From Acidimicrobiales bacterium (GTDB lineage Bacteria > Actinomycetota > Acidimicrobiia > Acidimicrobiales > Acidimicrobilacustridaceae), in the NCBI GenBank assembly GCA_025455885.1, contig JALOLR010000021.1, positions 1 through 35,706 on the forward strand: 35,706 nucleotides of DNA. The letters run 5' to 3'. A program made the translations under genes and the position numbers. Positions 3,227-31,755 of this stretch are shown piece after piece (the first letter of the stretch is position 1; each line of letters starts with the position of its first letter). A model generated the notes under the pieces. The model was not told the DNA's origin, did no database searches, and was given only the letters and a program-made list of their open reading frames with translations.

Positions 3227-3228
3227 CC

Positions 3229-3765: not shown

Positions 3766-3784
3766 CGAAGGTGGTGACCCCCCG

Positions 3785-9720: not shown

Positions 9721-9864
9721 GCGCCTCCCCGCCCGTCCTCGTCGGCGGCCCCCACACGGAGTTGCGCACCGTCACCGCCGCGCGATGGGCTAAGGCGTCC
9801 GAGCCGGCCCGACCGCCTCGGACCACGGTGGACGCGGCGTCGACGCACGGAGGAGGTGACCACG
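9721..9864 (+). other. 144-base gap inside operon 1 with a small inverted repeat
   Basis: This is the only sizeable gap among the 14 genes of the first nuo operon; all others touch or overlap. A 7-base inverted repeat, GTCCGAG at 9797-9803 and CTCGGAC at 9817-9823, could form a hairpin with a 13-base loop. There is no T run after it, so it is not a convincing terminator. A 53-codon open frame from the GTG at 9717 crosses the gap and runs into nuoH in another frame; it shows no protein-like features. No promoter was recognised. Confidence 0.5.
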
Positions 9865-11789: not shown

Positions 11790-11793
11790 ACCG

Positions 11794-12390
11794 ATGGAGA
11801 CGTTCGTGTTCATCGTCTGCGCGGTGATCGTGCTGGCCGGGGGCCTCGGGGTCGTGGTCTCGCGCAACCCGGTCCACTCCGCGCTCAGCCTCGTCGCCAC
11901 CCTCTTCGGCATCGCCGTGCTCTTCCTCAACCAGGACGCGCAGCTGCTCGCCGCCGTCCAGGTGATCGTCTACACCGGCGCCATCGTGGTGCTCATCCTC
12001 TTCGTGCTCATGCTCCTCGGGGTCGACAAGGACGAGGACATCACCACCGAGCCCCTCGTCGGCCAGCGCGCCCTCGCGGGCCTCGCCGGCGTGGTCCTCG
12101 TCGGTGCCGTGCTCGCCGTCCTCGTCATCGGCGGCAGCGACGCCGTCACCGGGGCCAGCTCGGTCACGGCCCCCCTCGAGGCCGGCGCCGGGAACATCGC
12201 CCAGATCGGCCGGCAGCTCTTCACCAACTACGTGTTCGCGCTCGAGATGACCGCCGCCCTCCTCACCATCGCCGTCGTCGGGGCGGTCGTCCTGTCCCGT
12301 CGGGAGAAGGACCCGCAACCGATCTCCGAGCCGGCGTCGATGACCGACCAGGGTGACAGCCCCCTCACCGCCGAGGGGGACGGGCACTGA
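11794..12390 (+). CDS. nuoJ: NADH-quinone oxidoreductase subunit J (first operon)
   Basis: Five-helix membrane subunit between NuoH/NuoA and NuoK. The 198-residue protein has the NuoJ hallmarks: early SRNPVHSALSLV, then QVIVYTGAIVVLILFVLMLLG with the characteristic Tyr-Thr-Gly-Ala of helix 3. A polar loop follows, and a final hydrophobic helix ends in LSRREK. The last 30 residues are hydrophilic. The ATG lies four bases after the nuoI stop, and its own stop overlaps the nuoK ATG. Confidence 0.94.
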   Translation: METFVFIVCAVIVLAGGLGVVVSRNPVHSALSLVATLFGIAVLFLNQDAQLLAAVQVIVYTGAIVVLILFVLMLLGVDKDEDITTEPLVGQRALAGLAGVVLVGAVLAVLVIGGSDAVTGASSVTAPLEAGAGNIAQIGRQLFTNYVFALEMTAALLTIAVVGAVVLSRREKDPQPISEPASMTDQGDSPLTAEGDGH

Positions 12391-12695
12391 TGGCGAACCT
12401 CGACGTGGCCTACCTCGTGCTGTCGGCGGTGCTCTTCGGCATCGGCGCGGTGGGGCTCATGGTCCGACGCAACCCCCTCGTGATGATCATGTGCGTCGAG
12501 CTGATGCTCAACGCCGTCAACCTGTCCTTCGTCACCTTCGGGAGCATGCTGGACGACATCACCGGCCAGATGATCGTGCTCTTCGTCCTCGTGGTCGCCG
12601 CCGCCGAGGTCGTGGTGGGCCTGGGTCTCGTCGTGGCCGTCGTGCGGCGCCAGCCCGGTGCCACCGCCGACGACATCACGTTGCTGAGGGGCTGA
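12390..12695 (+). CDS. nuoK: NADH-quinone oxidoreductase subunit K (first operon)
   Basis: Small three-helix membrane subunit of complex I, part of the proton-transfer path. The 101-residue length is exactly typical. The two conserved membrane Glu residues are visible, one in MCVELMLNAVNL (helix 2) and one in VVAAAEVVVGLGLV (helix 3). It starts at an ATG overlapping the nuoJ stop, and nuoL begins eight bases after its stop. Confidence 0.95.
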   Translation: MANLDVAYLVLSAVLFGIGAVGLMVRRNPLVMIMCVELMLNAVNLSFVTFGSMLDDITGQMIVLFVLVVAAAEVVVGLGLVVAVVRRQPGATADDITLLRG

Positions 12696-12703
12696 GCGCA
12701 ACC

Positions 12704-14725: not shown

Positions 14726-16416
14726 TGCTGACGCCTTCCGTGCTCGCGGCCGAGTCCGCCGGGTTCCCGGTCCTGCCGGCGATGGTGTTCGTGCCGTTCG
14801 TGTCGGCGCTGCTCATCGCGGTGATCCCCCGGTCGCGACCCGAGCTGCACCGCCAGATCGCCATCGTCGCCGGGCTCGTCACCTTTGTGCTGTCGGTGGC
14901 GATGCTGGTGCAGTTCGACACCGCGGACGACGGCTTCCAGTTCGTCGTCACCCAGACCTGGGTCTCCTCGCTCGACATCAAGTTCTTCCTGGGCGTCGAC
15001 GGGATCTCCCTCTTCCTCGTCGTCCTGACGGGTCTGCTGTTCCCGATCGCCCTCTTCGCGGCCAAGCCCGATCACGACCCGAAGGGCTACTACGCGTGGC
15101 TCACGCTGCTCATGGGCGGGTGCATGGGCGCGTTCATGGCCCTCGACCTCTTCCTGTTCTTCCTGATGTTCGAGATCACCCTCGTGCCGCTCTACATGTT
15201 GATCGGCAAGTGGGGCCACGGACGGCGGGTCTACGCCGCCACCAAGTTCTTCCTCTACACGATGCTCGGCTCGGCGTTCATGCTCGTCGCCATCGTGGCG
15301 CTGGCCGTCCTGGCCAAGGCCGGCGACGGCGGAACGGTGAGCTTCGACTTCACGAAGATCATCGCCAGCGACTCGCTGGCCCAGAACACCGGCCGGTGGC
15401 TCTTCCTGGGCATGGCCATCGCCTTCGCCGTCAAGGTGCCCGCCTTCCCGTTCCACACCTGGCTGCCTGACGCCCACACCGAGGCCCCCACCGCCGGCTC
15501 CATCGACCTCGCCGGCATCCTCCTCAAGCTGGGCACCTACGGGTTCCTGCGCTTCGGGTTGGAGCTGTTCCCCGAGGCGACGGTCTGGTTCGCGCCGGTG
15601 ATGCTCACCATCGCCACGATCGGCGTCGTCTACGGCGGGATCGTCGCGGCGATGCAGCGCAACCTGAAGCGGCTGGTCGCCTACTCCTCGGTGGCCCACA
15701 TGGGCTTCGCGTTGATGGGCATCTTCGCCCTCAACGTGGAGGGCCTCCAGGGTTCGGTGCTGCAGATGGTGAACCACGGGATCAGCACCGGCGCCCTGTT
15801 CATCCTGCTCGGGTTCCTCTACCGCCGGCGTCACACCTACGAGATCGCCAAGCTGAAGGGCATCGCCAAGGCGGCCCCGGTGTTCGCGGGCATCTTCACG
15901 GTGGTGATGCTGTCCTCCATCGGCCTCCCGGGCCTCAACGGCTTCGTGAGCGAGTTCCTGGTGCTGCTCGGCACCTTCGTCGCCCACCGGTGGTGGGCCG
16001 TCGTGGCGGCGACCGGCGTGATCATCGCCGCCCTCTACCTGCTGTGGGCCTACCAGCGGGTCTTCAACGGCGAGCCCGACGAGGACAACCGTGCCTTCCC
16101 GGACCTGAAGCTCTCGGAGCGCCTCGTGATGGTCCCGCTGCTGGTGCTGATCGTCTTCCTGGGCGTGTACCCCAAGCCGGTCCTCGACCGGATCGAGCCG
16201 TCCGTGCAGCGGGTCGTGAACCGCCTCGAGCTCCAGGTGGAGCGCTACGACCAGCCGGTCACCCAGGACGGCGGTGAGCTCGACCGGTCGCGCATCGAGG
16301 CCGCCGAGGAGCGCGAGTCCGACGCCGGGAACGAGGGAGAGCCGCCCGAGGGGGAGTCCACCGAGGGGGAGTCCACCGAGGAAGAAGCGGCGCCGCCGGT
16401 CGGGGGAGGCTCGTGA
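14725..16416 (+). CDS. nuoM: NADH-quinone oxidoreductase subunit M (antiporter-like, first operon)
   Basis: Middle antiporter-like proton-pumping subunit. The 563-residue protein has GVDGISLFLVVLTGLL, FFLMFEITLVPLYMLIGKWG with the key Glu, and FAVKVPAFPFHTWLPDAHTEAPTAG with the key Lys (each motif is continuous in the sequence but only partly listed here). QRNLKRLVAYSSVAHMGF carries another conserved Lys. About 50 hydrophilic residues extend the C-terminus; they include a perfect 15-base duplication (16348-16377) encoding Glu-Gly-Glu-Ser-Thr twice. The GTG start overlaps the nuoL TAG stop; its own stop overlaps nuoN. Confidence 0.95.
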   Translation: MLTPSVLAAESAGFPVLPAMVFVPFVSALLIAVIPRSRPELHRQIAIVAGLVTFVLSVAMLVQFDTADDGFQFVVTQTWVSSLDIKFFLGVDGISLFLVVLTGLLFPIALFAAKPDHDPKGYYAWLTLLMGGCMGAFMALDLFLFFLMFEITLVPLYMLIGKWGHGRRVYAATKFFLYTMLGSAFMLVAIVALAVLAKAGDGGTVSFDFTKIIASDSLAQNTGRWLFLGMAIAFAVKVPAFPFHTWLPDAHTEAPTAGSIDLAGILLKLGTYGFLRFGLELFPEATVWFAPVMLTIATIGVVYGGIVAAMQRNLKRLVAYSSVAHMGFALMGIFALNVEGLQGSVLQMVNHGISTGALFILLGFLYRRRHTYEIAKLKGIAKAAPVFAGIFTVVMLSSIGLPGLNGFVSEFLVLLGTFVAHRWWAVVAATGVIIAALYLLWAYQRVFNGEPDEDNRAFPDLKLSERLVMVPLLVLIVFLGVYPKPVLDRIEPSVQRVVNRLELQVERYDQPVTQDGGELDRSRIEAAEERESDAGNEGEPPEGESTEGESTEEEAAPPVGGGS

Positions 16417-18080
16417 TGGGCGTGCTCACCCCGATCCTCGCCCAGTCCGGCACGACCGTTCCCGCCGCGCCCGAGGCGGTCACCGACGTCGTCACCGTCA
16501 GCGGCCCCTCGGTCGACTGGGCCGGGCTCCTGCCCCTCGTCATCCTGCTCGTCGGCGCGCTGTTGCTGTTGACGGTGACGTCGGTGCTGCGCACGCGCAC
16601 CCCCCGCTCGTTCAACGCCATCTGGACCGTCACCGTGGCCAGCGCCGCCGCGATCAGCGCCATCCCGCTGTGGGGCAGGGTGCAGGGCTGGGACACCGTG
16701 CTGTGGTGGGACAACACCCCGGACCGCTTCGGGCCCTTCAGCACGATGGGCGGCATGGTGGGGATCGACGGCTTCGCCATCTTCCTCACCATCGTCATCT
16801 GCCTGGCCGTGGCCCTCACCGCCCTGCTCGTCGACGGCTACCTGCGGCGGGAGGGCCTCGACGACGGCCCGGCCCTCTACGTCCTGATGCTCCTGTCGGC
16901 CTCGGGCGGCGTCATGATGGCCGTCGCCAACGACCTGCTGATCGTGTTCCTCGGCCTCGAGACCCTCTCGATCGCCGTGTACGTGCTCGCCGCGATGCAC
17001 CTCAAGCGGGCCCAGTCCCAGGAGGCCGGCCTCAAGTACTTCGTGCTCGGGTCGTTCTCGTCGGCGTTCCTCCTCTACGGCATCGCCATGATCTACGGCG
17101 CCACCGGCTCGACCAACCTCATCGACATCAAGAACTTCATGTCCGAGGTCATCCCCGTGCAGAACGGGCTCCTCCTCCTCGGTCTCGCCTTCATCCTGGT
17201 CGGGCTGGCCTTCAAGGTCTCCGCCGTCCCGTTCCACGCGTGGAGTCCCGACGTCTACGACGGATCGCCCACGCCGGTCGTGGCCTTCATGGCCTCGGGC
17301 GTCAAGGTGGCCGCGTTCGCCGGGATGGTGCGGGTGTTCGTGCTGACCTTCGAGAACTACGGCTCCACCTGGCGACCCCTCGTCTACGGGCTCGCCGTGC
17401 TGTCGATGGTGGTGGGCGCCGCCCTCGCCATCGTGCAGAGCGACGTGAAGCGGATGCTGGCGTTCTCGTCGATCAGCCATGCCGGGTTCATCCTGATGGC
17501 CGTGGAGGCCGCGTCCGCCGAGGGCAACGCCGCAGTGCTCTTCTACCTGGCGGCCTACACCTTCATGGTCGTCGGCTCCTTCAGCGTCGTGACGCTCGTG
17601 GGGCGACGGGGCGACGGGCGCCACTCCCTCCGCGACTACCGGGGGCTGGGCCGGACGGACCCGCTGCTGGCCGCGGCGTTCACGGTGTTCCTCTTCGCAC
17701 AGGCCGGCGTGCCCTTCACCGCCGGCTTCTTCGCCAAGTTCTACGCGGTCGTCGCCGCCGTCGACGCCAGCTCCACCCCGCTGGCGATCATCGCCATGGT
17801 CTCCGCGGTCATCGCCGCCTTCCTCTACCTGCGCCTCGTCGCGGCGATGTTCATGTCCGGTGCCGACGACGGCGACGACGGTGCCTCCCCGGCGCGCGCC
17901 GAGCGCATCCGCATCCCCGCCGGTGCCGGCCTGGTCATCGGCATCTGCGTCGTGGTCACCATCGGCTACGGCCTGGTCCCCGACGCCCTCGTCTCGCCCG
18001 CGCGGGAGGGTCAGCCCGCCCTGGTACAGGTCGACGACCCCGCCACGGCAGCGGCGCCCACCACCCCCCGCGGGCCGTGA
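16416..18080 (+). CDS. nuoN: NADH-quinone oxidoreductase subunit N (antiporter-like, first operon)
   Basis: Proximal antiporter-like proton-pumping subunit. The 554-residue protein shows LGLETLSIAVYVLAAMH with the key Glu, then GLAFKVSAVPFHAWSPDVYDG with the key Lys. Next come SPTPVVAFMASGVKVAAF and DVKRMLAFSSISHAGF with Lys345. The ATG at 16416 overlaps the nuoM stop; an in-frame GTG directly before it is possible but adds only one residue. It is the last gene of operon 1: a terminator-like hairpin follows within 90 bases. Confidence 0.95.
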   Translation: MGVLTPILAQSGTTVPAAPEAVTDVVTVSGPSVDWAGLLPLVILLVGALLLLTVTSVLRTRTPRSFNAIWTVTVASAAAISAIPLWGRVQGWDTVLWWDNTPDRFGPFSTMGGMVGIDGFAIFLTIVICLAVALTALLVDGYLRREGLDDGPALYVLMLLSASGGVMMAVANDLLIVFLGLETLSIAVYVLAAMHLKRAQSQEAGLKYFVLGSFSSAFLLYGIAMIYGATGSTNLIDIKNFMSEVIPVQNGLLLLGLAFILVGLAFKVSAVPFHAWSPDVYDGSPTPVVAFMASGVKVAAFAGMVRVFVLTFENYGSTWRPLVYGLAVLSMVVGAALAIVQSDVKRMLAFSSISHAGFILMAVEAASAEGNAAVLFYLAAYTFMVVGSFSVVTLVGRRGDGRHSLRDYRGLGRTDPLLAAAFTVFLFAQAGVPFTAGFFAKFYAVVAAVDASSTPLAIIAMVSAVIAAFLYLRLVAAMFMSGADDGDDGASPARAERIRIPAGAGLVIGICVVVTIGYGLVPDALVSPAREGQPALVQVDDPATAAAPTTPRGP

Positions 18081-18219: not shown

Positions 18220-18594
18220 ATGTCTGAGTACTCCGATTTCTTGCGGCAGTACCTGACCGTCGCCATCTTCGCGGGTGTCGGGGTCGGTCTCGCTCTCCTC
18301 ATCCTCGGCGCCGGCAAGCTGCTCCGCCCGAGCCGGCCCCAGGAGCAGAAGTACCTGGTCTACGAGTCCGGTGTCGACGCCGTCGGCTCGGGTTGGTCCC
18401 AGAGCCAGATCCGGTACTACATCCTCGCCCTGATGTTCGTGGTCTTCGACGTGGAGGCCGTGTTCGTGTTCCCCTGGGCCACCCGGGTCGACACCTACGG
18501 CTGGTTCGGAGTGGTGGCGATGGCCGTCGTCATCGTGATCCTCGGTCTCGGGCTGCTCCACGCCTATCGCAAGAAGGTGATCCAGTGGGCCTAG
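18220..18594 (+). CDS. nuoA: NADH-quinone oxidoreductase subunit A (second operon)
   Basis: Three-helix membrane subunit of the second complex I. The 124-residue protein shows [15 protein letters not shown] where NuoA proteins usually have YECG, so the usual Cys is replaced by Ser. [22 protein letters not shown] follows, with the conserved Asp-x-Glu (stated here in part). It is shorter than the first copy and lacks its C-terminal tail. It is the first gene after a terminator and probable promoter. Its stop lies ten bases inside nuoB2. Confidence 0.94.
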
Positions 18595-19085
18595 TCGAGA
18601 GCGGTCGGATGCCGAAGTCGGTGTCGAAGCTGTTGAACCTGAGCCGGAAGTACTCCATCTGGGCCTACCAGTGGGGCCTGGCCTGCTGCGCGATCGAGAT
18701 GGGCGCGGCGTTCGCGTCCCCCCGCTACGACGTCATGCGCCTCGGGGTGATCCCCTTCCCGGCGACCCCCCGCCAGGCCGACCTCGTCGTCATCGCCGGG
18801 ACCGTCACCGACAAGCTCTCGCCGGCGGTCCTGCGGCTCTACGAGCAGATGCCGGACCCGAAGTACGTCATCTCGATGGGCTCCTGCTCCAACTGCGGCG
18901 GCCCGTACTGGGACAGCTACTCGGTCACCAAGGGCGTCGACCAGCTCATCCCCGTCGACGTGTACGTCCCGGGGTGCCCGCCGCGGCCCGAAGCGCTCCT
19001 CGAGGGCATCGTCCTGCTCCAGGAGCGCATCGCCAACGAGGACATGGCGGCGCGCTGGCGAGGTGATCCCATTGTCGTCGGCTGA
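18585..19085 (+). CDS. nuoB: NADH-quinone oxidoreductase subunit B (cluster N2 subunit, second operon)
   Basis: Carries cluster N2 of the second complex. The 166-residue protein has Cys34-Cys35 in [10 protein letters not shown], Cys101 and an extra Cys104 in GSCSNCGG, and Cys131 in VPGCPPRPE, so the N2 ligands are complete. CSNCGG differs from CASSGG of the first copy, and FPATPRQ replaces the usual FRASPRQ, so one Arg near the cluster is Pro. The GTG start gives Met-Gly-Leu-Val, has AAGAAGG eight bases upstream and overlaps nuoA2 by ten bases. The ATG at 18609 is an alternative. Confidence 0.94.
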
Positions 19086-19764
19086 CACCACCGTCGAGCC
19101 CGAGGCCGAGGAGGCCGTCGAGGCCCCCGTCGTCGACGAGCGCCGCGACGCGCTCCTCGAGTGGCTCGTCGGCGAGCTCGGCGACGCCGTCGTCGGTTCC
19201 CACATCCGTCCCCTCGACGACCTCTGGGTCCGGGTCGACCGCGACGCCTGGCCCACCGCCGCCGAGGTGCTGAAGGCCAAGGGGTTCACGTTCTTCGACT
19301 ACCTCTCGGCCATCGACTGGCTCCCGTCCCCCTTCGGCCGCGACATGGACGCCCAGGAGGACCTCCTCGTCAGCGGCGCGGCGCCCAAGGACCCCGGGCC
19401 GATGGAGCAGGGCTACGCCGGGGGCGCGACCCGGTTCCAGGTGATCGGGCGCCTCTTCTCGATCGCTGACGGGCTCGGCGTGCACCTGAAAGCCGACCTC
19501 CCCGACGACGACCTCCGGGTCGGCACCTGGACCCCCCACTTCCGGGGCGCGAACTGGCACGAGCGCGAGTGCTTCGAGATGTTCGGGGTCGAGTTCATCG
19601 GCCACCCCCACCTGGTCAAGCTCTACCTGCCCGCCGACTTCCAGGGGAACCCCCTGCGCAAGGACTTCCCGCTGCTGAGCCGACGCGTCCGCCCCTGGCC
19701 GGGGATCGTCGACGTCGAGCCCATGCCCGGCAGCGACGACGACGAGGAAGGGGACGGCGAGTGA
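19072..19764 (+). CDS. nuoC: NADH-quinone oxidoreductase subunit C (second operon)
   Basis: Connecting subunit of the peripheral arm. The protein of about 230 residues has an acidic N-terminal stretch, the signature ERECFEMFG and a C-terminal [13 protein letters not shown], both diagnostic of the 30-kDa family. An insertion of about 25 residues with [16 protein letters not shown] interrupts the core compared with the first copy. The start is uncertain: TTG at 19072 follows an almost perfect GAGGTGATCC ribosome-binding site at 19060-19069. The GTG at 19063 lies inside that site and would add three residues. The C-terminus ends in a run of Asp and Glu. Confidence 0.9.
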
Positions 19765-20936
19765 CCGCCATCAGCGAGCGCGACCAGATGGCCTTCATCG
19801 CCGCCCGGGCCGCCGACGCCCGGGTCAACATCGACCTCGAGACCGAGGGCATGACCCTCAACCTCGGCCCGCAGCACCCCGCCACCCACGGCACGCTGCG
19901 CATCGTCGCCAAGCTCGACGGCGAGCAGATCATCTCCGCCGAGCCGGTCCCGGGCTACATGCACCGCGGCTACGAAAAGCTCACCGAGGTCCGTACGTAC
20001 CCCCAGGTCACGGCGCTGGTGAACCGCATCGACTGGCTGGGGAGCTTCGCCAACGAGGTGCCGTTCATCCTCGCCGCCGAGAAGCTGATGGAGGTGGAGG
20101 CCCCACCCCGGGCCCGCCACATCCGCACCATCCTCTTCGAGCTCGCCCGCATCGCCAACATCTCGCTGTTCCTCGGCGACTTCGGTCTCCAGCTCGGTGC
20201 CCTGACCATGGGGTTCTACGCCTTCCGCGACCGCGAGCACGTGCTCAACCAGATCGAGTCCGCGACCGGTGGGCGCTTCCACCCCAACTTCGACCGCATC
20301 GGCGGCCTGAAGGACGATCTGCCGAAGGGCTGGATCGCCGACACCAAGCGGGCCATGGCCAAGCTGCGCGACCTGTGCGACGAGACCGAGACGCTGATGG
20401 TCGGCAACGAGATCTTCCAGGCCCGGACCCGCGGCATCGGGGTGATCCCCCCCGACGTGGCCCTCTCCTACGGCCTGTCCGGCGCCAACCTGCGCGGCTC
20501 GGGCGTCGACTGGGACATCCGCCGCGACGCCTGCCCGCCGGGCCTCGCCTACGACGACGTCGACTGGCAGGTCTGGACCCACCCCGACGGTGACTGCTTC
20601 TCACGCACGTGGGTCCGGCTCCAGGAGACCCGCGAGGCCACCCTCATCGTCGACCAGCTCCTCGACACCATCCCGTCCGGGCCGGTCATGGCGAAGGTGC
20701 CCCGCATCATCAAGGTCCCCGAGGGCGAGGCGTACGTGGAGACCGAGAACCCGCTCGGCGCGATGGGCTACTACGTCGTGTCGAAGGGCGACCTCGTGCC
20801 GTTCCGGGTGAAGATCCGCACGCCGTCGTTCAACAACATCTCGGTCGTGCCGTGGGTCGCCAAGGGCGTCTACGTCCCCGACCTCGTGGCCATCCTCGGG
20901 AGCCTGTACTTCATCCTCGGTGACATCGACCGATGA
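19761..20936 (+). CDS. nuoD: NADH-quinone oxidoreductase subunit D with altered quinone site (second operon)
   Basis: Quinone-site subunit of the second complex, 391 residues. The family is clear from [28 protein letters not shown] and the C-terminal GDIDR. The site His43 is kept, but three other conserved site residues are changed at the exact family spacing. The Tyr of RMDY is Trp92 (RIDW), the Asp that pairs with the His is Gln144 (LQLGA), and the Asp of the C-terminal DPxxG is Tyr383. The Arg equivalent to methylated NDUFS2 Arg85 is present as Arg69. The GTG start overlaps the nuoC2 stop by four bases; the stop overlaps the nuoH2 ATG. Confidence 0.95.
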
Positions 20937-21970
20937 TCGCCGTCCTCGCCTCCTTCGACCCGCCCTACTGGCTGTCGACGCTCATCAAGGTCGTCGTCGT
21001 CACCGCCGTCGTGCCGACCACGGCGCTCATCCTCGGCATGGTCTTCCTGTTCAAGGTCATGAGCTGGATGCAGAGCCGCATGGGCCCCCAGGAAGCCGGC
21101 CCGCGCGGTCTGCTCCAGCTCGTCGCCGACGGGGCCAAGTTCCTCCAGAAGGAGGACCTCATGCCCGAGGGGGCCGACCGCTTCGTCTTCCGCGCCGCAC
21201 CGGTGGTGGTGCTGGTCTCGACGTTCCTGCTCTACGTCGCCATCCCCGCCTCGCCGAACCTGGTGGTCGCCGACCTCGACCTCGGCATCTACTTCGTGCT
21301 GGCCGTCGCCTCGCTGTCGGTCATCGGTGTGCTCATGGCCGGCTGGGCGTCGGCCAACAAGTACTCCCTGATCGGCGCCCTGCGCGCCGCGGGGCAGCTC
21401 ATCGCCTACGAGCTCCCCCTCGTGCTCGCCGTGGTCGGCGTCGTCATCCAGGCCGGGACGCTGAGCATGAACGGCATCGTGGAGGCCCAGAACAGCGGCG
21501 AGATCTTCGGGTGGGGCGGCATCGGCAACCCGTTCATCCTCACGCAGTTCGTGGCCTTCGTGATCTTCATCGCCGCCGTCCAGGCCGAGCTCACCCAGCC
21601 CCCGTTCGACATGCCCGTCGCCGAGTCCGAGATCGTCAGCGGCTACCAGGTCGAGTACTCGGGGTTCCGGTTCCTCCTGTTCTTCCTCGCCGAGTTCGCC
21701 ACCGCCTTCGCCTTCGCCGCCATCGCCTCCGTCCTCTTCCTCGGCGGGTGGGCGGTCCCCTGGCTCAGCACCGACAGCGACCTCTACTGGGTGCTCGGAC
21801 CGATCGTGCTGTTCGCGAAGGTCATGCTGGTCTCGTTCATCATCTTCTGGGTGCGCTTCACGTACCCGCGGTTCCGCGAGGACCAGCTGCAGTCCTTCGC
21901 CTGGAAGGTCCTCATCCCCGTCGCCCTCGTGAACCTCATGGTCACCGGCGTGTTCAAGGTGGTGTTCTGA
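20933..21970 (+). CDS. nuoH: NADH-quinone oxidoreductase subunit H with altered channel residues (second operon)
   Basis: Membrane subunit joining the quinone cavity to the pumps, 345 residues, close to the usual length. It shows QSRMGPQEAGPRGLLQ, FLQKEDLMP, NKYSLIGALRAAGQ and PPFDMPVAESEIVSGY. Compared with the first copy and with Thermus Nqo8, the Glu-Arg at the end of helix 1 is Leu39-Phe40. The Arg before PPFD is Gln222, and the first Glu of the EAEQE acidic run is Val229; Glu219, Glu231 and Glu233 remain. The ATG overlaps the nuoD2 stop, and the stop overlaps nuoI2. Confidence 0.95.
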   Translation: MIAVLASFDPPYWLSTLIKVVVVTAVVPTTALILGMVFLFKVMSWMQSRMGPQEAGPRGLLQLVADGAKFLQKEDLMPEGADRFVFRAAPVVVLVSTFLLYVAIPASPNLVVADLDLGIYFVLAVASLSVIGVLMAGWASANKYSLIGALRAAGQLIAYELPLVLAVVGVVIQAGTLSMNGIVEAQNSGEIFGWGGIGNPFILTQFVAFVIFIAAVQAELTQPPFDMPVAESEIVSGYQVEYSGFRFLLFFLAEFATAFAFAAIASVLFLGGWAVPWLSTDSDLYWVLGPIVLFAKVMLVSFIIFWVRFTYPRFREDQLQSFAWKVLIPVALVNLMVTGVFKVVF

Positions 21971-22470
21971 TGCCCAAGGTCCCCGGCCTCATCAAGGGTC
22001 TCGGCGTGACGTTCGGTGAGATGGTCACGACCCTGAAGGACGGCCCGCAGACGACGCAGTACCCCCACGAGAAGGAGGTGCCGGCGCCCCGGGCCCGCGG
22101 CGTCATCACCCTCCAGGAGGACAACTGCACCGCCTGCATGCTCTGCGCACGCGAGTGCCCTGACTGGTGCATCTTCATCGAGGCCCACAAGTACCTCGCC
22201 CCGCCCCGCCGCGAGGGGGGCAAGCCTCGCCAGAAGAACGCCCTCGACCGCTTCGACATCGACTTCTCGCTGTGCATGTACTGCGGGATCTGCGTCGAGG
22301 TGTGCCCCTTCGATGCCCTCTTCTGGAGCCCGGAGTACGAGTACTCCGAGGTCCGCATCGCCGACCTGCTCCACGACAAGACCCGGCTGGGGCAGTGGAT
22401 GCAGACCGTCCCCGACTTCCCGGAGTACGAGGCCGGGTCGGAGGCGAAGGTCAAGAAGGTCCCCCGCTAG
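21970..22470 (+). CDS. nuoI: NADH-quinone oxidoreductase subunit I (second operon)
   Basis: The 8Fe ferredoxin-type subunit of the second complex, 166 residues. Both CxxCxxCxxxC motifs are complete: Cys53, 56, 59, 63 and Cys102, 105, 108, 112. The segment after the second motif, with EYEYSEVRIADLLHDKTRL, resembles the EYELS...L...L ending of cyanobacterial-type NdhI as I remember it. That type belongs to 11-subunit enzymes without an NADH module. It has no His/Asp tail. It ends in a TAG/GTG overlap with nuoJ2. Confidence 0.94.
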   Translation: MPKVPGLIKGLGVTFGEMVTTLKDGPQTTQYPHEKEVPAPRARGVITLQEDNCTACMLCARECPDWCIFIEAHKYLAPPRREGGKPRQKNALDRFDIDFSLCMYCGICVEVCPFDALFWSPEYEYSEVRIADLLHDKTRLGQWMQTVPDFPEYEAGSEAKVKKVPR

Positions 22471-22979
22471 TGCTCGCCCTCCTCGTCGCCCAGAACATCG
22501 CGTTCTACGTGATCGCCGCGCTGATGGTGTTCGGCGCGGTCCGCGTCGTCACCTGCCGGAACCTCGTGCACGCCGCGCTGTGGCTCGTCCTGGTCCTGTC
22601 GGGCGTGGCGGCCCAGTACATCCTGCTCGCCGCCGAGTTCGTCGCCGTCACCCAGGTGCTCGTCTACCTCGGCGCGGTGATCGTGCTCTTCCTGTTCGGC
22701 ATCATGCTCACCCGGGCCCGTACGGGGCTCGACGAGGACCTCGACAACCCGACCCCGGCCAAGGTCACCGCCGGGGTGATCGGGGTGGCCCTCCTCGGGG
22801 TGCTGAGCTACGCCCTCTGGGACGGCTTCCGCGACCGCGAGTTCGGCGACATCGCCGTCCAGCGCACCGCGCAGGTGAGCGATTCGATCTTCTCGACCTT
22901 CCTGCTGCCGTTCCTGGTGATCTCCGTGCTCCTGCTGGTCGCGCTCATCGGCGCCATCGTCCTGGCCAGGAGGGACTGA
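22470..22979 (+). CDS. nuoJ: NADH-quinone oxidoreductase subunit J (second operon)
   Basis: Five-helix membrane subunit, 169 residues. Typical features are CRNLVHAALWLV near residue 29, AEFVAVTQVLVYLGAVIVL, where Tyr-Leu-Gly-Ala replaces the usual Tyr-x-Gly-Ala, and a last helix ending in VLARRD. The GTG start overlaps the nuoI2 TAG stop. An AGGAGGG at 22968-22974 within its 3' end serves as the ribosome-binding site of nuoK2. Confidence 0.92.
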   Translation: MLALLVAQNIAFYVIAALMVFGAVRVVTCRNLVHAALWLVLVLSGVAAQYILLAAEFVAVTQVLVYLGAVIVLFLFGIMLTRARTGLDEDLDNPTPAKVTAGVIGVALLGVLSYALWDGFRDREFGDIAVQRTAQVSDSIFSTFLLPFLVISVLLLVALIGAIVLARRD

Positions 22980-22982
22980 GCC

Positions 22983-23297
22983 GTGTTCGTCAACCAGTTC
23001 CTCATCCTCGGGGCGATCCTCTTCTGCATCGGCGTCTACGGGGTCCTGGCGCGTCGCAACGGCGTGCTGATCCTGATGTCCATCGAGCTGATCCTGAACG
23101 CCGTCAACATCAACCTCGTGGCCTTCGGTGCGATGTGGCACGCCGGGGACGTCGCCAACATGTCCGGTCAGGTGTTCGCGCTCTTCGTGATCGCCATCGC
23201 CGCCGCCGAGGTGGGCGTGGGCCTCGCCATCGTCTTGATGATCTACCGCAACCGCCAGAGCATCGATGTCTCCGAGCTGGACCTGTTGAAGGGCTGA
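22983..23297 (+). CDS. nuoK: NADH-quinone oxidoreductase subunit K (second operon)
   Basis: Three-helix membrane subunit, 104 residues. Both conserved membrane Glu residues are present, in [12 protein letters not shown] and [13 protein letters not shown]. The GTG start lies nine bases after AGGAGGG. It is clearly the same family as nuoK1 but diverged, so the two operons are not a recent duplication. Confidence 0.94.
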
Positions 23298-23304
23298 CGT
23301 CGTC

Positions 23305-25509
23305 GTGATCCCCAATCTCCTCGACAAGGTCTGGATCCTCCCCGCCGTCATGGCGGCGTCGTTCCTGATCATCCTGTTCGTCGGCAAGCGCCTCGGCACG
23401 CGGGCCACCTCCGGCATCGGCATCGGTGCGGTGGGCATCTGCTTCGTGCTGTCGCTGGTCGTGGCGGGCCAGTGGATCGATCGGGTCAACCACCCCCCGG
23501 AGGTCGGCGAGGGCACCGAAGAGGTGCAGCCCGGCGGAGAGGAGGAGGCGCTCGTCCCCGTCGCCGCGGTCGCTCCCGGCGACGGTGAGGTCGCCGCGGG
23601 CCCGACCGAGGCCGCCGCCGGTGCCACGGAGCTGGCCGCCGGCGCCGAGGGCAAGGAGGAGGAGGCGGTCCCGCCGGTCGTGACCTCGGTGCCGTGGTTC
23701 ACGTTCGGTGAGATCGAGTTCGACGCAGGAACCCTCGTCGACGGTCTGACGGCGATGATGCTCTTCACCGTCACGCTCATCTCCCTGTTGGTCCACATCT
23801 ACTCCACCGAGTACCTGCGCGGCGACGTCCGCTACACGCACTACTACGCGTTCCTCTCGCTGTTCACGGCGTCGATGCTCTTCTACGTCGTCAGCTCGAA
23901 CACCCTCCAGATGCTGGTCGGCTGGGAGCTGGTCGGCCTCTGCTCGTTCGCCCTCATCGGGCACTGGTGGGAGGAGAAGAAGAACAGCGACGCCGCCCTG
24001 AAAGCCTTCTTCACGAACCGCGTCGGCGACGTCGGGCTCATCCTCGGCGTCATCATCACCTTCTTCGCGGCGGGGGCCACCAGCTTCGGGGTCCTCCACA
24101 TCAACGAGTACGCACTGTCGCCGGGCGCCAACACGACCCTGCTCCTCGTCGGGTGCCTCTGCCTCTTCGCGGGCGTCACGTCGAAGTCGGGGCAGTTCCC
24201 GCTCCACACCTGGCTCCCAGACGCGATGGCCGGCCCCACCCCGGTGTCGGCGCTCATCCACGCCGCCACGATGGTCGTCGCCGGCGTCTACCTGATCGCC
24301 CGGTTGTTCCCGGCCTTCTGGACGGGCCTGGCGATCGGCTCGAGCTCCATGCACTACGTCGCGCTGATCGGGGGGATCACCACGATCATCGGCGGCGTCC
24401 TCGCCTTCGTGCAGTACGACATCAAGAAGGTGCTGGCCTACTCGACGATCTCTCAGCTCGGCTACATGGTCATGGCGCTCGGTGTGGGCGCCTGGACCGC
24501 CGGCGTGTTCCACCTGTTCACCCACGCCATCTTCAAGGCCTGCCTGTTCCTCGGGGCCGGGTCGGTGAGCCACGCCGCCCACCACACCTTCGACATGCGC
24601 AAGATGGGCGGGCTGCGCACGCACATGAAGACGACCCACATCACGTTCGTCATCGCCTCGCTCGCCCTCATCGGCATCTTCCCGTTCGCCGGGTTCTGGT
24701 CGAAGGACGAGATCCTGGCGGGCGCCAACGCCGGCCAGGGCAACCCCTACACGGTGATGCTGGTCATGGGCCTCGTCACCGCGTTCATGACCGCCGCCTA
24801 CATGGGGCGGGCCTACTGGATGACCTTCCGCGGCGAATACCGGGGCCACGGGACCCCCCACGAGTCCCCCCGGGTCATGACCGTCCCGCTCGTCGTCCTC
24901 GCCGGGCTCGCGGTCTTCATCGGCTTCCTCAACTTCCCCAGGTCGTTCTTCGGCCTCGAGCTCACCGAGGGAGCGGTCGTCCGCTTCGAGCACTACGTCG
25001 AGCCGAGCTTCGCCTTCCCGACCATCTCGCACGCCTCGTTCACGCCGTGGATCGCCATCCTGTCCACGGTCCTCGGCATCACCGGTCTCTACGTCGCCTA
25101 CGCCTACTACGCGAAGAACCTCGGGCCCCACGGGCTCACCAGCCGCAACCGGTGGGCCGCCGGCGGCTACACGTTCCTGGAGAACAAGTACTACCTCGAC
25201 CACCTCTACACCGACGTGATCGCCGGCGGGGTCAAGGGGCCTCTCGCCCGGGGCGCCGACTGGGTCAACCAGCACGTCATCGACGGGGTCGTCAACGGGG
25301 TCGCCGCCGTCTTCCGGCGGGCGGCCGTCATCGTGTACCGCAACATCGACCAGTTCGCCGTCGACGGCCTCGTCAACGGTTCCGGGACCGTGTCCGAGGA
25401 GTCCGGTCAGATCCTGCGTCGTCTGCAGACCGGCAAGGTCCAGCAGTACGGCGCCATCCTCTTCGCCGGGGCAACCGTGCTCGCCGGCGTGTTCGTGTTC
25501 GTCCTCTGA
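23305..25509 (+). CDS. nuoL: NADH-quinone oxidoreductase subunit L (antiporter-like, second operon)
   Basis: Distal proton-pumping subunit of the second complex, 734 residues, about 120 longer than E. coli NuoL. Pump residues look intact: Glu in LVGWELVGLCSF, Lys in TSKSGQFPLHTWLPDAM, DIKKVLAYSTISQLGY and FAGFWSKDEIL. A Glu/Ala/Gly-rich, Cys-free low-complexity loop at about residues 67-130 follows the second helix and is absent from the first copy. The C-terminus carries the long lateral helix and last transmembrane segment. The GTG start lies seven bases after the nuoK2 stop. Confidence 0.94.
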   Translation: MIPNLLDKVWILPAVMAASFLIILFVGKRLGTRATSGIGIGAVGICFVLSLVVAGQWIDRVNHPPEVGEGTEEVQPGGEEEALVPVAAVAPGDGEVAAGPTEAAAGATELAAGAEGKEEEAVPPVVTSVPWFTFGEIEFDAGTLVDGLTAMMLFTVTLISLLVHIYSTEYLRGDVRYTHYYAFLSLFTASMLFYVVSSNTLQMLVGWELVGLCSFALIGHWWEEKKNSDAALKAFFTNRVGDVGLILGVIITFFAAGATSFGVLHINEYALSPGANTTLLLVGCLCLFAGVTSKSGQFPLHTWLPDAMAGPTPVSALIHAATMVVAGVYLIARLFPAFWTGLAIGSSSMHYVALIGGITTIIGGVLAFVQYDIKKVLAYSTISQLGYMVMALGVGAWTAGVFHLFTHAIFKACLFLGAGSVSHAAHHTFDMRKMGGLRTHMKTTHITFVIASLALIGIFPFAGFWSKDEILAGANAGQGNPYTVMLVMGLVTAFMTAAYMGRAYWMTFRGEYRGHGTPHESPRVMTVPLVVLAGLAVFIGFLNFPRSFFGLELTEGAVVRFEHYVEPSFAFPTISHASFTPWIAILSTVLGITGLYVAYAYYAKNLGPHGLTSRNRWAAGGYTFLENKYYLDHLYTDVIAGGVKGPLARGADWVNQHVIDGVVNGVAAVFRRAAVIVYRNIDQFAVDGLVNGSGTVSEESGQILRRLQTGKVQQYGAILFAGATVLAGVFVFVL

Positions 25510-25531
25510 GAAGCAGGGAAACGTCAAGCCG

Positions 25532-27079
25532 ATGAACGACTTCTTGAACGACTGGGGCCTCAGCCTGGCGGTGTTCCTGCCGCTGGTCGGCGCCGCCGTG
25601 ATGCTCGTGATCCCGAAGAGGGAAGAGGAGCTCCACAAGATCGTGGCCCTCGTCACGAGCCTCGTGGTGGCCGGCGTGGGCGTCGCCCTGTTCACCGAGT
25701 TCGACTACAGCGACGGCGGGCTGCAGTTCCTGGTCGACAAGGCCTGGATCCCGGTCATCAACAGCCGCTACATCGTCGGCATGGACGGGATCTCCCTCCC
25801 GCTCATCGCCCTCACGATGCTGGTCGTGCCGCTGTGCATCGTCTACTCGTGGAACCACTTCCCCGAGCCGCGCAACCCCAAGGCCTTCCTCATCCTCATC
25901 CTCATCCTCGAGACCGGGATGATCGGGACGTTCGTCGCGCAGGACCTGATCCTGTTCTTCGTGTTCTTCGAGGTCGTCCTGCTCCCGATGTACTTCATGA
26001 TCGGCGTCTGGGGCGGCGAGAAGCGCCAGTACGCGTCGATGAAGTTCTTCCTCTACACCCTGTTCGGGTCGGCGCTGATGATCGTCAGCTTCCTGGCGCT
26101 GTACTTCCTGTCCGACGAGGTGATGGTCGACGGCGAGATGATGCACTCGTTCTCGATGATCCTCCTGCCCGACCTGGCGCAGGGGATCTCGATCGGTGCG
26201 GCACTGTGGATCTTCGGCGGCATGTTCATGGGGTTCGGCATCAAGGTCCCCATCTTCCCGTTCCACTCGTGGCTGCCCGACGCCCACACCCAGGCGCCCA
26301 CCGTGGGTTCGGTCATCCTCGCCGCCGTGCTCCTGAAGCTCGGCACCTACGGCTTCGTGCGGATCGCCCTGCCGATCCTGCCCGAGGCGGCCGAGCGCTG
26401 GGCGCCCTTCATCGGGCTGTTGGCGGTGATCGGCATCATCTACGGCGCGCTGTGCTGCCTCGCCCAGACCGACATGAAACGGCTCATCGCCTTCTCCTCG
26501 GTCGCCCACATGGGCTTCGTGATGCTCGGCATCGCCACGCTGACCGACATCGGCATCAACGCCGCCATCTTCGGCATGGTCGCCCACGGCCTCATCACCG
26601 GGATGCTCTTCTTCGTGGCGGGCTCGGCCAAGGACCGCTACCACACCCTCGACATCTCCCGCCTGGGAGGCATGTTGAAGCAGGCCCCCCGGATGGGCTG
26701 GATCCTCGGTCTCTCGGCGATGGCCTCGCTCGGCCTCCCCGGCCTGGCCGGGTTCTGGGGCGAGTTCCCGGCGATCCTGGCCGCCTACAACCCGGGCGCC
26801 GATCTCAACGTCGGCCTGTTCCGGGTCTACATGGTGGTCGCCGCCCTCGGCACCGTGCTGGCGGCCGCCTACCTGTTGTGGATGTACCAGCGGGTCGCGT
26901 TCGGCACGCCCAAGGAGGAGTTCGCCGACAACCCCGAGATCAAGGACATGACGCTCACCGAGTACCTGGCCTGGACCCCGTTCGTGGTGTTGATCGTCGT
27001 GCTCGGCATCGTGCCCAACCTGATCTTCAAGGTCACCGACCCGGCCATCGTCACCACGATGTCGGCCTTCGGGATCTGA
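25532..27079 (+). CDS. nuoM: NADH-quinone oxidoreductase subunit M (antiporter-like, second operon)
   Basis: Middle proton-pumping subunit, 515 residues, standard length. It has GMDGISLPLIALTML, VFFEVVLLPMYFMIGVWGG with the key Glu, and GIKVPIFPFHSWLPDAHTQ with the key Lys. QTDMKRLIAFSSVAHMGF and LPGLAGFWGEF follow. No C-terminal tail like that of the first copy. A 22-base spacer after nuoL2 holds AGGGAAA as a weak ribosome-binding site. Only one NuoM is found in this operon, so it is not the 2M type of complex I. Confidence 0.95.
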   Translation: MNDFLNDWGLSLAVFLPLVGAAVMLVIPKREEELHKIVALVTSLVVAGVGVALFTEFDYSDGGLQFLVDKAWIPVINSRYIVGMDGISLPLIALTMLVVPLCIVYSWNHFPEPRNPKAFLILILILETGMIGTFVAQDLILFFVFFEVVLLPMYFMIGVWGGEKRQYASMKFFLYTLFGSALMIVSFLALYFLSDEVMVDGEMMHSFSMILLPDLAQGISIGAALWIFGGMFMGFGIKVPIFPFHSWLPDAHTQAPTVGSVILAAVLLKLGTYGFVRIALPILPEAAERWAPFIGLLAVIGIIYGALCCLAQTDMKRLIAFSSVAHMGFVMLGIATLTDIGINAAIFGMVAHGLITGMLFFVAGSAKDRYHTLDISRLGGMLKQAPRMGWILGLSAMASLGLPGLAGFWGEFPAILAAYNPGADLNVGLFRVYMVVAALGTVLAAAYLLWMYQRVAFGTPKEEFADNPEIKDMTLTEYLAWTPFVVLIVVLGIVPNLIFKVTDPAIVTTMSAFGI

Positions 27080-27082
27080 CCC

Positions 27083-28594
27083 GTGCTCGCCCAGCTGGCC
27101 GTCCTCGCCTGGGAGACCCCCGCGGTCGACCTGCACGCCCTCGCGCCCGAGATCATCGTCGTGGCGACGGTCTGCGTGGTGCTGCTGGTCGACGCCTTCA
27201 CGGGCGAGGACGCCCGCTGGACCGTGTCGTCGCTGTCCGGGATCGGCCTGCTCCTGGCCCTCGTCCCCATCGTCACCCTCGCCATGGACGGCACCGACCG
27301 GGTCATGTTCGGCGGCGCCTACGTGGTGGACGACTTCGCCCTGGTGCTGAAGGCGTTGTTCGTCCTGTCGGCCTACGTGGTCATCCTGCTCTCCACCAAC
27401 TACATCGCCGAGGGCGACTACTGGGAGAGCGAGTACTACATGCTCGTCGTGGGCTCGGTGGTCGGCATGATGTTCATGGCGTCGAGCCGGGACCTCATCA
27501 GCCTCTTCGTGGCCCTCGAGATGCTCTCCATCCCCGCCTACATGCTGGCGTCCTGGCGCAAGCGCGACGTCAAGGGCAACGAGGCGGGCCTGAAGTACTA
27601 CCTGATGGGTGTGTTCGCCTCCGCGATCCTGCTCTACGGGATGTCGTTGCTGTACGGCCTCACCGGCTCCACGATCCTGGCCGACATCGGTGAGGTCGTC
27701 GACGGGTCGGCCGACACCGCCCCCCTCGTGACGCTGGCCATCGTCTTCGTCGTGATCGGCTTCGCCTTCAAGGTCTCGGCGGTCCCGTTCCACTCGTGGG
27801 CGCCCGACACCTACGAGGGGGCCCCGACCCCGGTCACGGCCTTCTTCGCCGTGGCCACCAAGGCCGCCGGCTTCGTCGGGCTCATGGCCCTCGTCTTCGT
27901 GGGCTTCTACGGCCGCGAGGACGTCTACGGGCCCCTGCTGTGGGTGCTGGCCGTGCTCACCATGACCATCGGCAACCTCGTCGCGCTGCGCCAGACCAAC
28001 GTCGTGCGCATGCTGGCCTACTCCGGCATCGCCCAGGCGGGGTACATCCTCGCCCCGCTGGCCGTGGCCGGCGCCAACGGCGACGTCGGCACCCAGTCGC
28101 TGCAGGCGATCGTGGTGTACCTGCTCATCTACGCCAGCATGAACCTCGGCGCCTTCGCCGTCGTCATCGCCGTGGCCCGCAAGACACGTTCGGCGGAGCT
28201 GTCCAGCTTCGGCGGCCTGTTCTCCTACGCCCCGGGCCTGACCGTCGCCATGACGCTGTTTCTGTTCGCGCTGGCCGGCATCCCGCCCGCCGCGGGGTGG
28301 TTCGGCAAGCTGGAGATCTTCCGTTCGCTGGTCAGCGCCGACAACCTCGCCGGGTACTCCCTCGCGGTGTTCGTCGCCGTGAACTCGGTGATCGCCTTCG
28401 CCTACTACGGGCGGCTCATGCGGGTGATGTGGATGGACGAGGCGCCCGACGGGGACCGCACGCCGATCAAGGTCCCGGCCTCCCTGGCGGCCGCCGTCGT
28501 GCTCACCGCGGTGCTCACCATCGTCATCGGGGTGTTCCCCGCGGTCTTCACCCGCTTCACCGACTCCGTCACGCTGCTCGGCCTCGGCGGCTGA
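27083..28594 (+). CDS. nuoN: NADH-quinone oxidoreductase subunit N (antiporter-like, second operon)
   Basis: Proximal proton-pumping subunit, 503 residues. It shows FVALEMLSIPAYMLASWRKR with the key Glu (Lys/Arg follow) and GFAFKVSAVPFHSWAPDTYEG with the key Lys. In the later motif that reads DVKRMLAFSSISHAG in the first copy, this protein has NVVRMLAYSGIAQAG. The Lys is Val308 and the His is Gln, an unusual loss. The GTG start lies three bases after nuoM2. It is the last structural gene; a MidA-like gene follows after 13 bases. Confidence 0.94.
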   Translation: MLAQLAVLAWETPAVDLHALAPEIIVVATVCVVLLVDAFTGEDARWTVSSLSGIGLLLALVPIVTLAMDGTDRVMFGGAYVVDDFALVLKALFVLSAYVVILLSTNYIAEGDYWESEYYMLVVGSVVGMMFMASSRDLISLFVALEMLSIPAYMLASWRKRDVKGNEAGLKYYLMGVFASAILLYGMSLLYGLTGSTILADIGEVVDGSADTAPLVTLAIVFVVIGFAFKVSAVPFHSWAPDTYEGAPTPVTAFFAVATKAAGFVGLMALVFVGFYGREDVYGPLLWVLAVLTMTIGNLVALRQTNVVRMLAYSGIAQAGYILAPLAVAGANGDVGTQSLQAIVVYLLIYASMNLGAFAVVIAVARKTRSAELSSFGGLFSYAPGLTVAMTLFLFALAGIPPAAGWFGKLEIFRSLVSADNLAGYSLAVFVAVNSVIAFAYYGRLMRVMWMDEAPDGDRTPIKVPASLAAAVVLTAVLTIVIGVFPAVFTRFTDSVTLLGLGG

Positions 28595-28607
28595 TCCACC
28601 GGCGTCC

Positions 28608-29744
28608 GTGGTGCCTGCCGCGGTCCCGCTGGCCGAGCGCCTCCGCCGCCGCATCGCCGACGAGGGCCCGCTGGCCTTCTCGGCGTTCATGGACGCCGCG
28701 CTCTACGACCCGGACGACGGGTTCTTCGCCTCCGGGGGCCGGGCGGGGGGTCGCGGCGACTTCCTGACCAGCGTCGAGGTGGGGCCCCTCTTCGGGGCGG
28801 TGCTGGCCCGGGCGCTCGACCGGTGGTGGGAGGAGCTCGGACGCCCCGACCCGTTCGTCGTCGCCGACGTCGGGGCCGGTCTCGGCACCCTGGCCCGCAC
28901 GGTCACCCGCGCCGAGCCGCGGTGCACGCCGGCGCTGGTGTACGTGATGGTCGAGCGTTCGGAGCGCCAACGGCGGCGGCACGCCGAGCACCTGAGGGGC
29001 TTCGCCGGTGAGCTGGGAGTCGACGTCCCCGTCGACCTGGTCGTCCGACCCCGTGCGGGGGCGGGACCGGTCACGGTGTCCTCGGGAGCGCTCCCGCCGC
29101 CGGGCTTCACCGGCGTCGTGCTCGCCAACGAGCTGCTCGACAACGTGGCCTTCGACGTGGTCAGGGCCGGTACCGACGGTGGGGTCGAGGAGCTCCGGGT
29201 CGGGTCGGGCGACCACGGTGACTTCGTGGCGACGGTCGTCGCCCGCCCGGTCGCCGACGCCGCCGCGACCCTCGAGGGTGTGGCGGCCGGGGTGTGGGTA
29301 CCGCACCAGGCGGCGGCCGCGGCGTGGGTGGGCGAGGTGCGCCGCCACCTCGACGCCGGCTTCGTGGTGGTCCTCGACTACCTGGTCACCGATCAGCGGC
29401 TCGCCCTGGTCGACGACCTCGGGTGGCTCCGGACGTTCCGGGGCCACGAGCGGGGGAGCCACCCGCTCGCCGAGCCCGGCAGCCAGGACATCACCGCGGA
29501 CGTCGCTGTCGACCAGCTCCTCCGGCGCCAGCCCGGCGCGTCGGTGGTGACCCAGCGTGACTTCCTCCTTGCCCACGGGATCGACGAGCTCGTGGAGGAG
29601 GGCCGGCGCACGTGGGCCGAGCGGGCCCATCTCGGTGACCTCGAGGCGGTGCGCGGCCGCAGCCGGATCAGGGAGGCCGAGGCCCTGCTCGATCCCGCCG
29701 GCCTGGGAGCCTTCGGCGTGCTGCGGTGGACCGTCGATCCCTGA
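28608..29744 (+). CDS. SAM-dependent methyltransferase, MidA/NDUFAF7 family
   Basis: The protein has 378 residues. It starts with [15 protein letters not shown], which matches the FMxxxLYxPxxGYY opening of the MidA (DUF185) family. [17 protein letters not shown] and the SAM-binding motif [12 protein letters not shown] (about 84-96) follow, then [14 protein letters not shown] near 171-184, where the family has ANE-hD. Mitochondrial NDUFAF7, the family member studied best, dimethylates an Arg of NDUFS2 (the NuoD homologue) and is needed for complex I assembly. Here the gene begins 13 bases after nuoN2 with no terminator, so it is probably in operon 2. NuoD2 has the target Arg (Arg69), NuoD1 does not. 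Confidence 0.88.
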
Positions 29745-29750
29745 CACCGG

Positions 29751-29791
29751 CCGGCCGGGCCGAGGGGACGGCCCACTAGTGTCCCGGCCGG
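29751..29791. repeat. 9-base inverted repeat upstream of acetyl-CoA synthetase
   Basis: CCGGCCGGG at 29751-29759 is perfectly repeated in inverted form as CCCGGCCGG at 29783-29791, with 23 bases between. The spacer contains the palindrome CACTAGTG, inside which TAGTGT (29777-29782) could be a -10 box for the acs gene. There is no T run, so it may be an operator or transcript structure rather than a terminator. Confidence 0.4.
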
Positions 29792-29817
29792 AGACGACGC
29801 GAGAGGGGTGGGCCGCC

Positions 29818-31751
<1,934 letters not shown>

Positions 31752-31755
<4 letters not shown>

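Follow-up and report, generated by a model that had tools for sequence, protein, structure and literature searches.

Proteins of the MidA/NDUFAF7 family are already known as arginine methyltransferases for complex I, and for the mitochondrial enzyme a role comparable to the one considered here has been proposed (the accessible parts of PMC8042128, PMC9006661 and PMC12455994). According to the excerpts available from PMC3750175, the target arginine is symmetrically dimethylated in mammals, Pichia and Paracoccus and is not so modified in E. coli, and Thermus has a threonine at that position of its 49-kDa subunit. This threonine is one half of an inter-subunit switch, in which the side chain of an arginine from the NuoB homologue fills the same space (PMC8042128, in its accessible part). 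Two nuo clusters are likewise already known in actinobacteria; the second cluster of Ca. Actinomarinales, which is without E, F and G, has been compared with an F420-linked archaeal enzyme (PMC7771536, available portion).

The window, by which we mean the whole 35,706-nucleotide stretch of Acidimicrobiales DNA analysed, holds two adjacent nuo operons, both on the + strand. The first (nuoA1 to nuoN1, with nuoE, nuoF and nuoG; 2166–18080) gave family matches for A1, B1, D1, F1, G1 and H1, its remaining genes being named by eye from their translations; the second (nuoA2, B2, C2, D2, H2, I2, J2, K2, L2, M2 and N2; 18220–28594) gave family matches for all genes, and no nuoE, nuoF or nuoG was seen within it. 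Directly after its last gene, nuoN2 (27083–28594, +; PF00361, 226 bits), stands midA (28608–29744, +), which has a GTG start and encodes a predicted SAM-dependent methyltransferase of 378 residues. The gap from the nuoN2 stop at 28594 is 13 nt, the spacing that an earlier note on this DNA had given, and a scan of 28300–30000 for promoters and terminators found none. Upstream of nuoA1 the + strand encodes a cytochrome c-domain protein (99–1220; PF13442, PF00034) and, directly next to nuoA1, a protein without a Pfam match (1220–2161); 73 nt downstream of midA lies a gene for an acetyl-CoA-synthetase-type AMP-binding enzyme (29818–31755; PF00501, PF13193, PF16177).

The proposed substrate, Arg-type NuoD2 (19761–20936, +; NF004739, 388 bits against 360), whose GTG start overlaps the nuoC2 stop, has His43 and, within MHRGYEK, Arg69, the proposed methylation site (codon 19965–19967, +; CGC in atgcaccgcggctac); NuoD1 (3785–5122, +; NF004739, 550 bits), with a presumed ATG start at 3785, has His74 and, within LHTGMER, Thr100 (codon 4082–4084). 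In both proteins the site follows the histidine by 26 residues, which we take to be the spacing of bovine His59 and Arg85 as well. PDB alignments set Arg69 with the Yarrowia-type HRGTEK motif, and Thr100 with the HTG found in both Thermus 2fug and 8e9g, where human HRGTEK has its arginine. Codons and alignments thus agree with the earlier note in placing the target arginine at NuoD2 Arg69 and a threonine at NuoD1 position 100; its claim that the arginine occurs only in NuoD2 stands within the window but not beyond it, where arginine is a widespread state of complex I.

The NuoB subunits carry the reverse residues at the switch position, arginine in NuoB1 (2639–3226, +; PF01058, 100 bits; codon 2897–2899) and threonine in NuoB2 (18591–19085, +; PF01058, 97 bits; codon 18801–18803), with both codons computed from the alignment and the nuoB1 start deduced from its overlap with nuoA1. 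Operon 1 is therefore Thr-type and Thermus-like (NuoD1 Thr/NuoB1 Arg), and operon 2 encodes an Arg-type rather than a Thr-type complex I (NuoD2 Arg/NuoB2 Thr). Among loci in which both subunits could be read, the 163 unique NuoD/NuoB pairs comprised 105 Arg/Thr, 57 Thr/Arg and a single Arg/Trp, so that the published switch is obeyed by 162. Because NuoB1 has arginine and NuoB2 threonine, and given these pair counts, we conclude that both halves of the switch are present in the window and that the threonine of NuoD1 reflects a different design, not a lost site. A chance point substitution behind the Arg/Thr difference is ruled out by the two-subunit pattern. The sole NuoB read with tryptophan at the switch (VAGWCSIK; L238 3858–4265, genome G186) has an Arg-type NuoD as its partner.

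Assignment of the midA product to its family comes from several sides. It matches PF02636 (COG1565) at 92–93 bits, against a Pfam cut-off of 23.3, and is the only PF02636 match in this genome; NCBIfam returned no family for it. Three PDB sequences match at E 0.001, namely 4f3n, 1zkd and 5ztz, the last a Dictyostelium NDUFAF7 homologue. An AlphaFold2 model built on 42 aligned sequences (mean pLDDT 92.3, pTM 0.90) has 4g67, 4f3n, 5zu0, 5ztz and chains A and B of 1zkd as its six best PDB folds, with query TM scores of 0.73–0.80, and the next match after these MidA-family structures reaches only 0.34. Across the 42 homologues G89, G91, G93 and N174 are kept at 90% or above and E175 and D178 are invariant; the three glycines presumably form SAM motif I, and N174, E175 and D178 the NExxD signature of MidA. 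With a score above the family cut-off, a full-length fold, both motifs and a target-arginine NuoD in the same genome, the protein belongs to the MidA/NDUFAF7 family, as the earlier note had proposed for this reading frame and as Pfam, PDB sequence matches and fold concur. At a further motif, Streptomyces-like MidA proteins (L135 10287–11459; L139, L141, L146) read TSVHAS, the window MidA TSVEVG, and others TSPE or TSPH; the glutamate of T-S-x-E, a motif conserved elsewhere, is absent from the Streptomyces-like proteins.

We compared the distribution of midA with that of nuoD2 in 198 genomes of the order, each at least 90% complete, calling NuoD2 by tblastn (E ≤1e-100) and MidA by PF02636 (E ≤0.001). 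NuoD2 was found in 129 genomes and PF02636 in 138: both in 128, NuoD2 alone in 1, MidA alone in 10 and neither in 59, so that MidA is present in 128/129 genomes with NuoD2 against 10/69 without it, raw counts that shared ancestry inflates. A Fisher test on this table takes no account of ancestry, and we give its p value no weight on its own. Equal conservation of midA in relatives lacking the second operon, the outcome that the earlier note had set against its own proposal, is thus not what the order displays, and the same table rules out MidA as a general housekeeping gene of the order. The sole NuoD2-only genome (G145) has its nuoD2 on a 4.8-kb contig. Weak PF02636 matches (E >1e-12) account for 7 of the 10 MidA-only cases and for 12 of the 128 co-occurring ones, of which 11 are no farther than 20 kb from NuoD2; with the MidA limit at E ≤1e-12 the 198 genomes divide into 116 with both, 13 with NuoD2 only, 3 with MidA only and 66 with neither (116/129 against 3/69). 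Strong MidA matches with no NuoD2 detected occur in G299, G303 and G414. Of the 128 genomes with both genes, 107 have MidA no more than 20 kb from NuoD2 (in 105 of them downstream on the same strand), one has it at 20.4 kb and 20 have it on a different contig.

For gene neighbourhoods we read the best 80 loci out of 483 relatives, most of them from metagenome-assembled genomes of Acidimicrobiia and other actinobacteria. Among these best 80 loci, 72 have nuoN2 as the closest nuo gene, on the strand of midA and upstream of it, with a nuoN2–midA gap of 291 nt or less in 66; the other eight show no nuo gene, the contig ending within 3.2 kb upstream in seven of them and the eighth, L323, having full 10-kb flanks without any nuo gene beside midA. 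Wherever NuoD could be read in these 80 loci it has arginine (48/48). Some records carry unexpected labels. A 15.8-kb contig labelled Rubrobacter sp. LC3_4 (L261 and L333; contig C498 of G141, JADDPU010000310.1) has an Acidimicrobiia-like second nuo operon with midA and a NuoD2 81% identical to that of the window, and G141 also has a NuoD of a different type (HRSKEK); the contig looks mis-binned. Two records labelled Acidobacteria (L282 and L340) have the Acidimicrobiia-type nuo2–midA arrangement, and their label or binning may be wrong.

Across the phylum, in 246 genomes drawn evenly, PF02636 was found in 76. By the matches listed, on which all phylum NuoD counts rest, Arg-type NuoD occurs in 135 genomes, 72 with MidA and 63 with no PF02636 match; 36 genomes had only Thr-type NuoD read, some of them with a second, weaker NuoD-like match outside the reading, and two of these (G092 and G208) have MidA; the other 75, with no NuoD match or an unread one, include two with MidA, G178 (83% complete) and G242 (68%).

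Of the 76 MidA-bearing phylum genomes, 39 have MidA at most 20 kb from NuoD2, or 40 if G113, at 20.4 kb, is counted. Of those 40, 19 have NuoD1 on the same contig, at a greater distance than NuoD2 every time, 16 have it on another contig, and in five it is absent from the listed matches. In the remaining 36, MidA is not within 20.5 kb of NuoD2, partly through assembly; in G081 midA and nuoD2 are each well inside a long contig of their own and genuinely separate, and in G167 a distance of 25.7 kb lies between them.

The two genes also stay together outside the operon. In 29 phylum genomes, several of them 7–10 Mb in size and apparently Streptomyces-like in genus, no nuoB lies near nuoD2. A Thr-type nuoB2 is found elsewhere in 28 of these (the exception is G149), and none of the 14 nuoB2 operons read at length has a nuoD of its own, L235 holding only the Thr-type nuoD1 of operon 1. 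Measured between match ends, the distance from the stray nuoD2 to MidA is at most 20 kb in 26 of the 29 genomes and at most 1 kb in 16; the two are on opposite strands in 22 of the 26. In G149 and G224 MidA is on another contig, and in G160 none was found. Therefore midA usually stands beside nuoD2 where nuoD2 stands apart. In one group (f16), the nuoD2 of G006 and that of G021 are outside the operon with midA close by, and G036, without midA, has its nuoD2 inside.

The reading that we favour, and consider probable, makes the midA product a SAM-dependent protein arginine methyltransferase for the maturation of the Arg-type second complex I, most likely through dimethylation of NuoD2 Arg69. The analysis establishes its family and fold, the place of its gene in the operon, its tight co-occurrence with NuoD2, its nearness to NuoD2 and not to NuoD1, and the Arg/Thr switch; its catalysis, target residue, type of methylation and effect on assembly we infer. 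MidA would use SAM to dimethylate Arg69, which is predicted to sit in a loop beside iron–sulfur cluster N2 at the NuoD–NuoB interface; methylation would come before or during the docking of NuoD2 to NuoB2 and would help the two to join. Complex 1 would need no such step, because NuoB1 supplies the equivalent arginine. A dedicated maturation factor for the second complex, as the earlier note had put forward, is thus supported both by the counts in the order and by NuoD1 being always the more distant where both NuoD genes share the contig. In its favour, too, E. coli, whose arginine is not dimethylated as it is in Paracoccus, Pichia and mammals, gave no PF02636 match as one of 14 control genomes. 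Against this role count the 63 Arg-type phylum genomes without MidA, the strong MidA matches without a detected NuoD2, the two MidA-bearing genomes with only Thr-type NuoD, the 12/128 weak matches, the 36/76 unlinked cases, an identity of 19–27% to solved MidA-family structures and the T-S-x-E motif without its glutamate in Streptomyces-like MidA. To these is added E. coli, whose motif we take to be HRGAEK and which does not fit the pattern described below. It keeps its arginine unmodified, by the accessible part of PMC3750175.

As a predictor of MidA, the arginine alone is ruled out by those 63 of 135 genomes. The residue two positions on (Arg+2, the X of HR-x-X-E; Tyr71 in the window NuoD2, codon 19971–19973, +) appears to follow the presence of MidA more closely, a pattern found post hoc by scanning 365 NuoD columns after the counts had been seen. 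Genomes with and without MidA number 29 and 1 for Tyr, 28 and 2 for Ala, 5 and 0 for His, 4 and 0 for Val, 1 and 1 for Met, and 1 and 0 for Leu, as against 3 and 35 for Phe, 0 and 15 for Gln, 1 and 6 for Ile, and 1 and 3 for Lys; these figures cover 134 of the 135 genomes, the one missed by the pattern being MidA-positive G006 (HRGYEK), and G141 and G186, with two Arg-type NuoD each, are counted under two residues. Among the Tyr and Ala genomes that lack MidA, the contig of G145 is cut, and completeness is 81% for G160 and 84% for G245.

On a tree of 139 NuoD with the motif masked, and with a residue class (Tyr, Ala, His, Val, Thr, Met and Leu against the rest) chosen after the counts were seen, MidA changes at least 13 times and the class 7 times. 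Of 10 independent pairs with a difference in MidA, 4.7 have the class differing in the same way, 5.3 show no difference in class and almost none go the opposite way (median p 0.0625); over 5 pairs differing in class, MidA goes the same way in 4.4 (median p 0.13). These pair tests are suggestive only. Two of the 365 columns separate a Phe clade of 25 rows, three of which (G040, G052 and G064) do have MidA, from the compared MidA-positive rows without overlap, in a comparison from which G141 and G186 were left out, and of the two Arg+2 alone changes in both sister contrasts as well (G036/G021; G239 and G067/G029). Enlarging the contrasting groups yielded no new genomes: there are three in each, all already in the sample. 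We regard the association of Arg+2 with MidA as a post hoc lead. A more specific version of the proposal, which we put forward tentatively and would sooner doubt than believe, is that nuoD2 and midA form a substrate–enzyme module that stays together outside the operon, and that the Arg+2 residue sets the dependence on methylation: Phe (or Gln, Ile or Lys) would let Arg-type complexes dispense with it, so that MidA would be lost upon the change.

The best-surviving alternative, though an unlikely one, is that MidA is a complex 2 factor which acts on another residue or subunit, or serves mainly as a binding chaperone. In the order midA is linked to the whole operon, through its place after nuoN2, and methylation of the target is a prediction; against this, MidA keeps within 20 kb of nuoD2 in 26 of the 29 genomes where nuoD2 has strayed from nuoB2, the only NuoD column to separate the contrasts tried lies (post hoc) two residues from the arginine, and the SAM-site glycines of MidA are kept. 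Much less probable still is a general methyltransferase hitch-hiking in the operon, such as the DNA methyltransferase proposed for Wolbachia, whose MidA, expressed in E. coli, gave m4C and m6A marks according to a 2025 paper, a result called preliminary in the available text of PMC12455994; part of the phylum does have MidA unlinked to nuoD2, but co-occurrence with NuoD2, absence from most close relatives without NuoD2 and the several gene arrangements are unexpected for a general enzyme. That MidA serves both complexes, or the first, is hardly credible: the two operons are adjacent in the window and G092 and G208 have MidA with only Thr-type NuoD seen, but NuoD1 has threonine at the site, separation of the operons leaves MidA with operon 2 (distances to NuoD2 and NuoD1 of 20 kb against 3.55 Mb in G113, 0.3 against 906 kb in G204 and 0.5 against 146 kb in G023), and, in the phylum sample, all six members of the order with only Thr-type NuoD read are without MidA.

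The proposed maturation of the Arg-type complex by MidA can be set beside the described systems. In the open-access literature, taken by titles and abstract openings (a scope outside which a 2018 Cell Reports paper on MidA falls), we recognised no link of midA to a second nuo operon or to a separate nuoD2–midA pair. The association suggests a function for a methyltransferase gene of 138/198 order genomes and of genomes that we take to be Streptomyces-like in genus. With human and Dictyostelium NDUFAF7/MidA the window protein shares PF02636, the fold (query TM 0.77 for 5zu0 and 5ztz) and an equivalent target arginine in NuoD2, at 19–20% identity to the Dictyostelium structure; it differs in that its gene accompanies those of one complex I isoform in a genome that has two, and its activity is predicted. 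Paracoccus denitrificans likewise offers a bacterial complex I, in which the equivalent residue, Nqo4 Arg65, is symmetrically dimethylated (PMC3750175, in the excerpts available), but Paracoccus is a proteobacterium. Ca. Actinomarinales likewise has two nuo clusters, one of them (the second) lacking E, F and G, but the accessible portion of PMC7771536 mentions no methyltransferase with that second cluster. The switch itself matches that of Thermus thermophilus and Yarrowia, with a 49-kDa threonine facing an arginine of the NuoB homologue or the reverse; there, however, it runs between species (accessible part of PMC8042128), whereas a single genome combines the two states here, as relatives do. 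These bacteria thus have in the same cell one complex I open to methylation and another in which the arginine is naturally switched, and the probable enzyme is linked to one of the two, so that the part played by the modification in assembly and in the N2 potential could be compared in a single background.
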